Below are positions 38,837 to 63,302 of a DNA stretch of 64,000 bases, in pieces (the first letter of the stretch is position 1; every line of letters begins with the position of its first letter). Both the position numbers and the translations under genes were made by a program. The notes beneath the pieces are model-generated. The model had not been told where the DNA came from and made no database searches. It saw nothing but the letters and a program-made list of their open reading frames with translations. Origin of the DNA: Eunapius fragilis. Lineage: Eukaryota; Porifera; Demospongiae; Spongillida; Spongillidae. The stretch covers positions 351,001 to 415,000 of the forward strand of contig OY811986.1 of assembly GCA_963681505.1 (NCBI GenBank), given 5' to 3'.

Positions 38837-41800
38837 ATGAAGGTATACATGGACTTGTGCATCGTCTTCGCATCTCTTCTCACAGCCGTCTCATCGGCAA
38901 CAGATATACCAATATGTAACTCAAGTGAGTGGTGTACGAATGGCCACCGAGGGGAGTGTTTGTATCCGCTCTGTGGCACTTTAATACTAAGCCTCCCAGA
39001 CTGATTACTAAATTTGTTTTCGCCGCTAATTTGTGACGTTCCTTTGATAGGAAATTCCAAGTTTGGTTGCTATGACATCGTAACTATGTATACTGCAAAC
39101 ATTTTGATTTCGTACTCATCTCAGGAATTATTAGAATGGGCGTAGTGCATGTGCACGTTTGTGTTTTAGGATGCTGTTGCAGTTAGGGATAGAGCGGGTG
39201 TGTCTGCATACAGGAATAACACGCACACAACACAGCTGGTAACTTTTTCTACACCACCATGTGCAGGCCTTGTTATTAAATTCATTATGTTTATGGAGTG
39301 TGTGTGTGTGGTGAGATGATGCCATCCAAAGGACACACAAGGTGTAACTGGTGTTGGTGTGGTGGTGTGGTGGTCACCTCATTGTTAGTTATGTTCTGTC
39401 CATTCAATTAACAGCAAATCAATTGAAAATAAATCCAATTACCCAAGTGGTCAATTTGAATGACACCAATATTAAACTGAACTGTGACGATGAACCTTAC
39501 GAGTCATGCGTTTGGAAGTGGCAAGTGTTTAATGCTAGCAGATGGATTGACATTACTAGCAATTTGACTGAATCGTAAGTAATGCCCACACAAACCTTTG
39601 GGCTACTCACTCTGAGTCCTCCCTCCTCTCCCACTCACCCTAGCATATTACCTCTTCTCTCCTCCTCTCTCTCATCTCCTCCTCCCTATCCTCTTCCCTC
39701 CCCTCCCTATCCTCTTCCCTCCCCTCCCTCTCTCATTATCCTTTTTATTGATTTTCTCCTTACTCTAGTGGTATCTATTTCCTCTCTAATGGTTCCCTGC
39801 TCATTCCTACCATTGGAATACATCATGCCACTAACTACAGATGCGCAATCGCTGGCCGTTCCAGAGATAGTGCCCTAGCCACCATCTATTTACGCAGTAA
39901 GTATTTGTCTAGAAGATTCTCCAGGTGGCTCATTAACAAATGTCCCTTTAGCCCAGCTGCAGTACATGAATGGACAGTCTTCCTTGTGCGTGGACCCAGG
40001 GTCAAACGGAAGCTTCTCTTTCTCTACCATAGGTCTGGGGAAGAGGCAGGGTGAAAGTAGTACATGGTTTCATTTTTATCTCTTGTCCATTAGGGTACCC
40101 AGTCCCAGTTATAACTCTATATAAAATGGGGTCCCCAGGCCAATGGATTCCAGTGAATGATAGTCGATTTGCAGCAACTGTAACTTCTGTCAGTGTGATG
40201 GGTGCCAAGGGAACAGATGATGGGATGTACTTGATAAATGCCACAAACAGCTATAGCACAAGCCAACTAACCTTCAGGCTGAATGTCTCAGGTATGTGTA
40301 CGTGTGTGTGTGTATGTGTATATGTGTGTATGCATATGTATGTGTATGTATGTATGTATGTGTATGTATGTATGTGTATGTATGTATGTGTATGTATGTA
40401 TGCGTATGTGTGTCTGTGTGCGCTTGTACATGTATAGCATTTTCTAATGTCTACTCTCTCTCTCTCTCTCTCTCTCTCTCTGTCTCTCTAGATTTTGACA
40501 TTCCCATGCTGTATGTGGTTTCATCCACAGTAGTCTTACAACGTAACCAGGCAACATCAGTCAGCTGTTCTGTCCAGCCCAGCGCCATAAAAGGGGTGGG
40601 GTGTGGAGGAGGTGAGGTGAGTACTGGCCTCACCATGAAGTGGACAATACAGGTGAGTGAGGGAGAGGGAATAAGAGAGGAGGGAGGGAGGGAGGGGGAG
40701 AGAGTGGAGGGAGAGGGAGGAGGGAGGGAGGGAGGGGGAGAGGGTGGAGGGAGAGGGAGGAGGGAGGGAGGATGGATGCATTCATAATGTTGGTTATCAA
40801 TGTGTAACCCTAAGTATTAAGCAGCTTCCAGAGTTGAAGACCTCTTGAAAGGGAGGACTCCATTAATTTCCCCCCTCTCCCTGGTGGTTGGGTCATTACA
40901 GTTGTCGTCATGAACCACACCCATGCCACACCCACATGAAATAAGGCTTAGTTTCTGAAGTTACAATTGATTTCCCTATTGCAGGGGACAATGGTCACTT
41001 ATGACCGTACCCAGGGGGTGTACATGGTCAACCAGAACAACTCTATCTTTCTGATGTTCCAGTCATTCCAGAGTACCCAGATTGGTACATACATCTGTCA
41101 GGCCACCAATCTGAGGGGATCTTACAATACCTCCGTGATGATATATGGTTAGCAACAGCTCCTCCCCCTACCCCCTCCCTACTCTCCCCTACCCTCTTCT
41201 CTCTCCTCCCCTCCTCTTCCTCCCTCCCCTCCCCTACCCTCTCTCCCCTCCCCTACCCTCCTTCCCCTCCTCCTCTCTTCCCCAGTTTTTAAGCGTTGTT
41301 CCCTCCTCCCCAGTAAGTCCAGACCCTGTGTCAACACCGTCTTCCTCCGTATCGAGCACAGGAGTGGTCACCATCTTATGGACACCTGCCACGCCCTCTG
41401 GTCCCTTTCCCCGCACCTACATAGTGTACTATTCGTAAGTGGGAGTGTTATGGGAGCACCATGGGAGTGTTATGGGGGCACCATGGGAGTGTTATGGGAG
41501 CACCATGGGAGTGTTATGGGAGCACCATGGGAGTGTTATGGGAGCACCATGGGAGTGCCACGGGAGCACCATGGGAGTGTTATGGGAGCACCATGGGAGC
41601 GCCATGAGAGCACCATGGGAGTGCCATGGGAGCACCATGGGAGTGCCATGGGAGTGCCATGGGAGCACCATGGGAGTGCTATGAGAGCACCATGGGAGCA
41701 CCATGGGAGTGCCATGGGAGTGTGCCACGGGAGCACCTCCAGGTGTATTGATGCGCACCATCTCGCACCACCAGCAAACTAGAGGACACCAAGGAGATAT

Positions 41801-62900: not shown

Positions 62901-63302
62901 TCCTTCCGAAGAGGTCCAAGTGTCAAGACGGAAGACATGTTAGTAGTGACAGCGTGCACAGGCTGTGAGGGGTCCAGAGGTATCACTGATCCCTGTGGAG
63001 TGTTTGGACGTAATACACCAGCAAACAGCCACTCCCCACACCTCCACCCACTCCCTCACCCCCAGCCACTCCCCTCACCCCCAGCCACTCCCACACCTCC
63101 ACCCACTCCCTCACCCCCAGCCACTCCCCTCACCTCCGGTCACTCCCCCTCACCTCCTTGGTCCAGGTAATGGAGAAGCCAGATATATCCAGTCCCGTGC
63201 ACACCACACCCTGCCATTGGATGGAACATGGAATGGAGACAGGCTGTGAGTAGTTCAGGTAGACGGACGTGCGTGGCGTGTTGATCAGCGTGTTATCTGT
63301 GT
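59911..63302 (-). CDS. Ig/FN3 receptor tyrosine pseudokinase, copy C, 5' partial
   Basis: Minus-strand exons found: 63302-63154, 62992-62830 (third Ig), 62596-62482, 62185-62016 (FN3), 61958-61844 (TM, VIVLIIVGLLAVLGLAWY), 61794-61749, 61690-61336, 60885-60686, 60630-60473, 60349-60309, 60253-60057, 59997-59911. This gives about 597 residues. Exons for the signal peptide and first two Ig domains are not seen before 64000 and probably lie outside. The kinase-like domain has VTVK, no glycine loop, HGSLCARN, NLRAYDL, WMAPE, WSFGVTMW and the tail YSDDVYSQF. It has one extra residue in the glycine-loop region (LSELILYDGF). The C-lobe exons are nearly identical in DNA to copy A although the gene is inverted. 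Confidence 0.85.
61203..61312. repeat. 24-bp tandem repeat in receptor C intron
   Basis: Five copies of accaaaagattactagatag + gtat. Confidence 0.93.
62190..62460. repeat. 25-bp minisatellite in receptor C FN3 intron
   Basis: About ten copies of acagggggtgtggcatatcc + ttagt, with shorter variants at the start. On the coding strand it reads GCCACACCCCCTGTAC. Confidence 0.93.

Follow-up and report, generated by a model that had tools for sequence, protein, structure and literature searches.

The 64-kb window analysed here (64,000 nucleotides, positions 351,001 to 415,000 of contig OY811986.1, assembly GCA_963681505.1, from the freshwater sponge Eunapius fragilis) carries three members, A, B and C, of a receptor family in which the kinase domain has lost its catalytic residues and, by sequence comparison, is under purifying selection. 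A genome-wide search with the kinase domain revealed a family of at least six copies, namely A, B, C, D and E on chromosome 16 and an unlinked copy, F, on chromosome 18. D and E lie on the minus strand directly beyond the window, and five of the six genes are clustered. The common layout comprises a signal peptide, three immunoglobulin-like (Ig) domains, an FN3-like domain, one transmembrane helix, a juxtamembrane segment, a kinase domain encoded by five exons (K1–K5) and a short tail. The data suggest signalling by docking to partners instead of catalysis, and on balance we lean towards the reading that these receptors are non-catalytic co-receptors or scaffolds, which would combine a docking module with variable sensors and with tails for docking or sorting.

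The kinase fold was readily recognised. Draft A and B proteins, which were 1–2 residues off at exon junctions, scored 225 and 210 bits against Pfam PK_Tyr_Ser-Thr (cut-off 23). The beta-3 lysine was kept in all six copies, and MAPE and CW were read in K3 and K5 of A, in agreement with the earlier note on this DNA, which had listed these elements as conserved. HRD was changed to HGS in all six copies, and DFG to LRA in A and C and to LRG in B, the six copies together showing LRA, LRG or VGA. The activation segment consisted of 18 residues, 12 fewer than the 30 of FGFR2 (that of A was counted by eye). Both replacements and the shortening had already been noted for the window copies. With the HRD and DFG aspartates lost from a kinase fold in 6/6 copies, the whole family is classed as predicted pseudokinases. 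The alpha-C glutamate was replaced by Asp throughout. The claim that the glycine-rich loop is missing held in part: the first and third glycines of FGFR2 were lost in all six copies, but the loop is degenerate rather than absent (YDGFST, YDGFTT or HDGYST), and the middle glycine was lost only in B (YESHTM). Other kinases of this sponge served as controls, and all 18 places read retain DFG and the Asp of HRD. These controls comprised 20 loci at 19 places (L006 and L019 denote one place), L007 was left out of the 18, and the scripts sought HRD and DFG motifs, so that the comparison is a presence check and not a survey. The earlier note had raised the eventuality of exon choices that restore HRD and DFG. 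In all six genes, the five introns of the kinase region were searched for such exons; none was found, and HRD occurred there only as two lone triplets, one in B and one in F.

A weakly active or atypical kinase working through other residues could be imagined from the retention of the beta-3 lysine (6/6), the catalytic-loop Asn (5/6, including A, B and C) and the middle loop glycine (5/6), and some predicted pseudokinases bind adenosine triphosphate according to the accessible text of PMC13259870. Both catalytic aspartates, two to three loop glycines and 12 activation-segment residues relative to FGFR2 are gone together, however, and F has Cys in place of the catalytic-loop Asn as well, which makes residual catalysis of this kind very improbable.

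The ratio of nonsynonymous to synonymous substitution rates (dN/dS, or omega; Nei-Gojobori) of the kinase domain was 0.06–0.31 in 14 of the 15 pairs, and the remaining pair was saturated. When F was compared with A, C, D and E, the ratio was 0.06–0.08 with a synonymous divergence (dS) above 2, and K2–K4, which encode the hinge, catalytic loop and activation segment, were the most constrained part (omega 0.05–0.08). HGSLCA was invariant across the copies, and the dead motif itself is, at the sequence level, under constraint. The earlier note had proposed selection for a non-catalytic function and advised a measurement of dN/dS; the kinase values bear the proposal out and are not near 1. The family could instead act as a ligand sink or decoy, in which the ectodomain would capture a ligand or partner receptor, the tail motif YSQF (YxxPhi) would remove the captured molecule and the kinase fold would serve as a stalk. 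Such a role would suit a dead enzyme and the invariance of YSQF in 6/6 tails. It appears rather unlikely, since a passive stalk needs neither the strong constraint on K2–K4 nor the homogenisation that keeps these exons uniform in A, C, D and E.

This homogenisation was evident at synonymous sites. K1–K4 of A, C, D and E differed at 2–10% of them per exon and pair, whereas Ig3 through the juxtamembrane exon was saturated or nearly so between A or C and the D/E pair and between A and C, and the tails had escaped homogenisation there as well. K1–K4 was compared with this flank by a Fisher test, in which the sites are not strictly independent. Synonymous differences numbered 11/155 in K1–K4 against 135/204 in the flank for A–C (p = 1e-32), 5/156 against 159/209 for A–D (p = 9e-51), 6/156 against 158/208 for A–E (p = 3e-49), 10/156 against 139/208 for C–D (p = 9e-35) and 7/156 against 139/207 for C–E (p = 4e-38). 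Between A and C, D or E, the homogenised block starts inside K1 at the first kinase-domain residues (from about position 42785 in A), covers the K2-K3-K4 introns as a DNA match and ends right after K4. In these pairs K5 is once more saturated; the block shared by C, D and E extends over K5. D and E resemble each other along most of the gene (93% identity across 3.1 kb), with a synonymous difference of 0.00 in Ig3 and FN3 against 0.47 in Ig1 and 0.70 in the tail. A and B differ at 0.03 of synonymous sites in Ig2, compared with 0.50 and 0.75 in the adjoining Ig domains; the match between their DNA begins in the second exon of Ig1, and Ig3 is not shared. Abrupt stretches of identity at synonymous sites, in paralogues that are saturated elsewhere, are the pattern of a gene-converted family, and the mosaic is most simply explained by gene conversion or by the copying of exon-sized segments from one paralogue to another. 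Gene conversion very probably acts on the kinase cassette separately from the rest of the gene.

The mosaic affects the dating of the loss. The earlier note had concluded from the lesions shared in the window that the loss predates the duplications. Because the kinase exons of A and C are homogenised, lesions common to A and C date nothing, and this argument fails. The conclusion itself survives by another route: F is unlinked and synonymously saturated against the other five copies (K3–K4 difference 0.65–0.75) and has the same lesions. The catalytic loss is thus old, as judged from the divergence of F and, less strongly, of B (K3–K4 difference 0.45–0.47), which gives weaker evidence because its K2 looks partly homogenised.

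Variable ectodomains on one constant signalling domain, produced by gene conversion and tandem duplication, could also serve self/non-self or symbiont recognition. The genes are clustered and multicopy, the ectodomains have diverged while the kinase is constant, and mosaic exchange reached ectodomain exons as well (A–B Ig2; D–E Ig3 and FN3). On the other hand, whole-ectodomain dN/dS was 0.27–0.49 in the 8 of 15 pairs for which it could be computed (the others were saturated, and C comprised Ig3 and FN3 only), and no computable pair exceeded 1, so that these pairs gave no sign of positive selection. The divergence is old, not fast, and the family has six copies only, which renders such a recognition role improbable. 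A recognition system built on one dead kinase, in which gene conversion would unify the pseudokinase in the linked genes while ectodomains and tails differ, and several sensors would share one non-catalytic output, is put forward only tentatively and is itself unlikely. If true, it would exist in a lineage whose true FGFRs have been doubted.

Six-frame reading and tblastn, whose lowest E in the window was 1e-56, detected homologous kinase exons at three window loci. The gene models placed A at 38837–44601 (plus strand, 16 exons, 844 residues) and B at 50307–57105 (plus strand, 17 exons, 833 residues), both running from signal peptide through stop, and C at 63302–59911 (minus strand, 12 readable exons). 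The three receptor copies reported by the earlier note were recovered at these places, two of them forward and one inverted. Its statement that the frames stay open over 16–17 exons applied to A and B, which have no internal stop, but not to C with its 12 readable exons; the 5' part of C (signal peptide, Ig1, Ig2) would fall beyond the window end, into 5000 N of the genome. D and E each have 16 exons and F has 17, and none of the six models contains an internal stop. The models were built from conserved blocks, splice sites and phases, and some exons were set by hand. Exon layout and phases are alike across the copies, save that A has no intron before the transmembrane exon and that D and E have none inside Ig2. 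Chance open frames are ruled out by homologous exons with matching phases in six genes. Among the five ectodomains scanned (A, B, C, D, F), Ig domains exceeded the Pfam cut-off in A, B, D and F, and alignment placed an FN3-like domain between Ig3 and the transmembrane helix in 6/6 copies. The features of the receptor tyrosine kinase superfamily (signal peptide, ectodomain, single transmembrane helix and tyrosine-kinase-type domain) were present, the signal peptide of C being unreadable.

The likeness of D and E over 3.1 kb and the eight haplotypic duplications removed according to the accessible part of the assembly report (PMC12616128) could point to an assembly artefact in which D and E are uncollapsed haplotypes, or the genes could be decaying pseudogenes. 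Both are highly unlikely: frames are open in 6/6 copies, phases are conserved and dN/dS is low, D and E diverge in Ig1 and in the tail as given above, and A, B, C and F are independent of D/E.

Beyond the gene structure, motif loss, constraint and mosaic, which are read from the genome, we infer a partner, a ligand and an output for the favoured co-receptor or scaffold as follows. The ectodomain would bind ligands or neighbouring cells, and the pseudokinase would be a constant module for protein binding, with an active receptor or a cytoplasmic tyrosine kinase as its partner. The tail, with its invariant YSQF and S/T-x-L end, would supply docking or sorting signals, and the different ectodomains would feed one common output. 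All six tails consist of Y-[SD]-x-x-x-YSQF, a stretch of variable length and an S/T-x-L C-terminus (TVL, TLL, TVL, SVL, TAL and TPL). YSQF and S/T-x-L were kept in 6/6 copies although the tails of D and E differ at 0.70 of synonymous sites, and an S/T-x-[LIV] end occurred in 1 of the 10 other kinase frames of the genome that were read to the end. We take YSQF to be an endocytic YxxPhi (AP-2 sorting) signal or a phosphotyrosine SH2 site, and the S/T-x-L end to be a class I PDZ ligand, both as predictions only. The start of the tails of A, B and C is FLDLEQYS-like, as in D, and presumably resembles the PLC-gamma docking tail of FGFR, with Phe in place of the docking Tyr.

Several observations count against the co-receptor or scaffold reading or loosen the data beneath it. 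The kept beta-3 lysine means that nucleotide binding may still be possible. K2 gave an omega of 1.2–1.5 in A–D and A–E, with very few synonymous changes, D–E had zero synonymous changes in Ig3 and FN3, and a pairwise dN/dS averages over the parts of a mosaic gene. The DNA match of A to C, D and E is interrupted in the K1–K2 intron and ends near simple repeats masked by the filter, and B is itself a mosaic whose K2 differs at 0.20–0.28 of synonymous sites from A, C, D and E. Since GT-AG was imposed on every intron model, the consensus is no independent evidence, and the donor at the Ig2a exon is weak in A and B. The Ig domains of C were under the Pfam cut-off, and fn3 reached 16–23 bits, at the same position in 5/5 ectodomains scanned, against a cut-off of 25. 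The tail motifs are short. Ectodomain searches of the genome found no active kinase with the family ectodomain, and there is no catalytic paralogue among the six. In these searches Ig3-FN3 returned all six copies plus one weak Ig-like match, and Ig1-Ig2 of A returned A, B and one weak match but missed D, E and F; a diverged partner could thus also be missed.

The closest kinases among those compared were human FGFR2/3. The best 60 of 1136 PDB matches of copy A were all FGFRs (best 8e-63), and in local BLAST the six copies were 37–44% identical to FGFR2/3, 35–39% to RET and 29–33% to VEGFR2, and 28–35% to the sponge's own kinases of Src-, ROR- and DDR-like type (labels given by domain look, not from a search). 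In a 15-row tree (midpoint root, without Tie, Trk or Eph rows) the six copies joined FGFR2/3, RET and VEGFR2 (100/97), apart from the five sampled sponge kinases. RET and VEGFR2 formed their own group (82/81) on the side of the family, the stem branch of the six was 1.55, and the ROR- and DDR-like sponge rows carried a warning of long branches meeting; with its small number of rows, the tree points to a class and not to orthology. The family resembles the FGFR class (with RET and VEGFR2) in kinase-domain similarity and an Ig-type ectodomain, and differs from it in the dead active site, the FN3-like domain, the 18-residue activation segment and the long stem. The ectodomain of FGFRs typically consists of Ig domains without FN3, which does not agree with the FN3-like domain aligned in 6/6 copies, and the motifs of FGFR catalysis are gone. 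A eumetazoan origin of FGFR is argued in the accessible text of PMC7260276, and because this origin is favoured there, the six genes are not filed as FGFRs.

The dead copies are not the only FGFR/RET-class kinases of the sponge, since catalytic exons with HRD and DFG occur elsewhere. When human FGFR2 was used as query, an N-lobe match as a separate exon was found only in the six copies among the 135 of 631 candidates that were scored. One such exon, intact and RET-like, with 64% identity to RET across 77 residues, belongs to a kinase that keeps DFG at locus L072 on chromosome 20 (C20:1356500-1359500, minus strand). The clusters of tyrosine-kinase-like exons observed on C20, C6, C23, C10, C15 and C12 suggest that lineage-specific kinases are numerous in this genome. 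A DNA pattern for HGS-L-C-A matched B, F, four unrelated places and one place in a reversed control, and adds nothing. Bacterial, archaeal and viral contig collections yielded no relatives and are not informative for sponges. As an inactive receptor group related to FGFR/RET, the family would be of use in tracing the early history of the class.

Kinase-dead co-receptors occur elsewhere, as HER3 with HER2 and nematode FLOR-1 with OLD-1, and FLOR-1/OLD-1 of C. elegans would be the best precedent for a lineage-specific receptor family. In the accessible part of PMC10523662, the FLOR-1 pseudokinase is described as having neither the Gly loop nor the HxDxxxxN residues nor the DFG aspartate, and as acting downstream of the active receptor OLD-1, whose membrane level it affects. 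The KIN-16 family of both proteins is likewise a lineage-specific receptor family with a pseudokinase (PMC10523662), but there one pseudokinase stands beside an active relative, whereas all six known sponge copies are dead and the other kinases listed were at most 39% identical over at least 230 residues. Human receptor pseudokinases share the receptor layout and degenerate motifs; in the portion of PMC13259870 at hand, EphB6 reads HRS and RLG, and none of the eight human proteins has fewer than two of the three loop glycines. Unlike them, the sponge copies keep at most one loop glycine and are without the HRD Asp, DFG and the alpha-C Glu, and there are six of them, five clustered, with homogenised kinase exons. 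The Geodia cydonium receptor is also a sponge protein with an Ig-like ectodomain and a kinase domain; it is described in the accessible text of PMC12018476 as a receptor tyrosine kinase, not a pseudokinase. No description of a sponge receptor pseudokinase family was found in the literature searched, which had few subscription journals. Polymerase chain reaction surveys that target the HRD motif of sponge kinases would miss such genes. In the literature consulted, receptor pseudokinases are mostly single genes beside active relatives, whereas here a whole receptor family of an early-branching animal appears dead, old and conserved, and it would show that a kinase fold can be maintained for long periods solely for protein binding.

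In gene A, exon 1 (38837–38924) starts with ATG, encodes the predicted signal peptide (MKVYMDLCIVFASLLTAVSS...) with its hydrophobic stretch and ends at a GT donor in phase 1. Ig1-Ig2-Ig3 (39415–41147; I-set 43.8 bits and Ig_3 39.1 bits for the ectodomain) were modelled as exons 39415–39574, 39769–39896, 39913–40032 (with the weak donor gtctgg), 40094–40291, 40492–40652 and 40985–41147. The FN3-like domain and transmembrane helix (41314–42083) are encoded by exons 41314–41434 and 41775–42083, with an fn3 score of 17.2 bits and the helix SGGTLLAILVVLVVVIVVV, and are followed by the juxtamembrane exon (42506–42560; HRSHQQRTWGGDEEVDPK). K1 (42682–43045) contains the linker, DPKWE, the degenerate Gly loop YDGFST, VAVK and alpha-C ADM. 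K2 (43327–43526; tblastn and gene model) contains the hinge, alpha-D and alpha-E, and K3 (43582–43739) reads HGSLCARN in place of HRDLAARN and LRA in place of DFG, followed by MAPE. K4 (43881–43921; WSFGVTMWELVTL), K5 (44270–44466; alpha-G to alpha-I with CW, not homogenised with C, D and E) and the tail exon (44530–44601), which ends in YDGTEYSQFDEQATVL and a stop, complete the gene.

Gene B was modelled with a signal-peptide exon at 50307–50385 and with Ig1-Ig3 at 50611–52675 (Ig_3 61.4 bits) in exons 50611–50776, 50906–51036, 51053–51172, 51234–51431, 52259–52425 and 52504–52675. The FN3-like exons (52730–52844 and 53428–53588; fn3 23.3 bits, under the cut-off) and the transmembrane exon (53665–53779) together span 52730–53779, and the juxtamembrane exon lies at 54386–54434. 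The kinase exons (54547–56748) are K1 54547–54907, K2 55625–55824, K3 55963–56120, which carries HGSLCASN and LRG, K4 56205–56245 and K5 56558–56748, and the tail exon (57028–57105) ends in YDSEQYSQFNDNSLTTLL and a stop.

On the minus strand, gene C is readable from Ig3 onward (62830–63302; exons 63154–63302 and 62830–62992), the exons upstream being unreadable. The FN3-like exons (62482–62596 and 62016–62185; fn3 21.8 bits, under the cut-off), the transmembrane exon (61844–61958) and the juxtamembrane exon (61749–61794) lie within 61749–62596. The kinase exons (60057–61690) are K1 61336–61690, K2 60686–60885, K3 60473–60630, which carries HGSLCARN and LRA, K4 60309–60349 and K5 60057–60253, and the tail exon (59911–59997) ends in YSDDVYSQFEDIAVTSSTTVL and a stop.

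Dense micro- and minisatellites were observed within and around the receptor-gene introns, at 48861–49306, 51717–52239, 53040–53399, 53820–54375, 54925–55222, 57905–59349 and 63307–63756, and a 26-base unit is repeated in about 56 copies between B and C. Such repeats at the receptor genes may favour unequal exchange. Directly before gene A, exons at 36023–38118 on the minus strand resemble what we take to be a COP9 signalosome subunit 1 gene. Farther upstream on the plus strand, a frame at 28629–29465 has a SYF2 splicing-factor domain (165.6 bits), and one open frame of about 2548 residues at 12399–20045 encodes a MYND finger and nine Tudor stretches (TUDOR 659 bits), presumably a TDRD1-like layout. 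The Tudor array is partly an internal repeat, 79–80% identical, at 16.3–18.2 kb.

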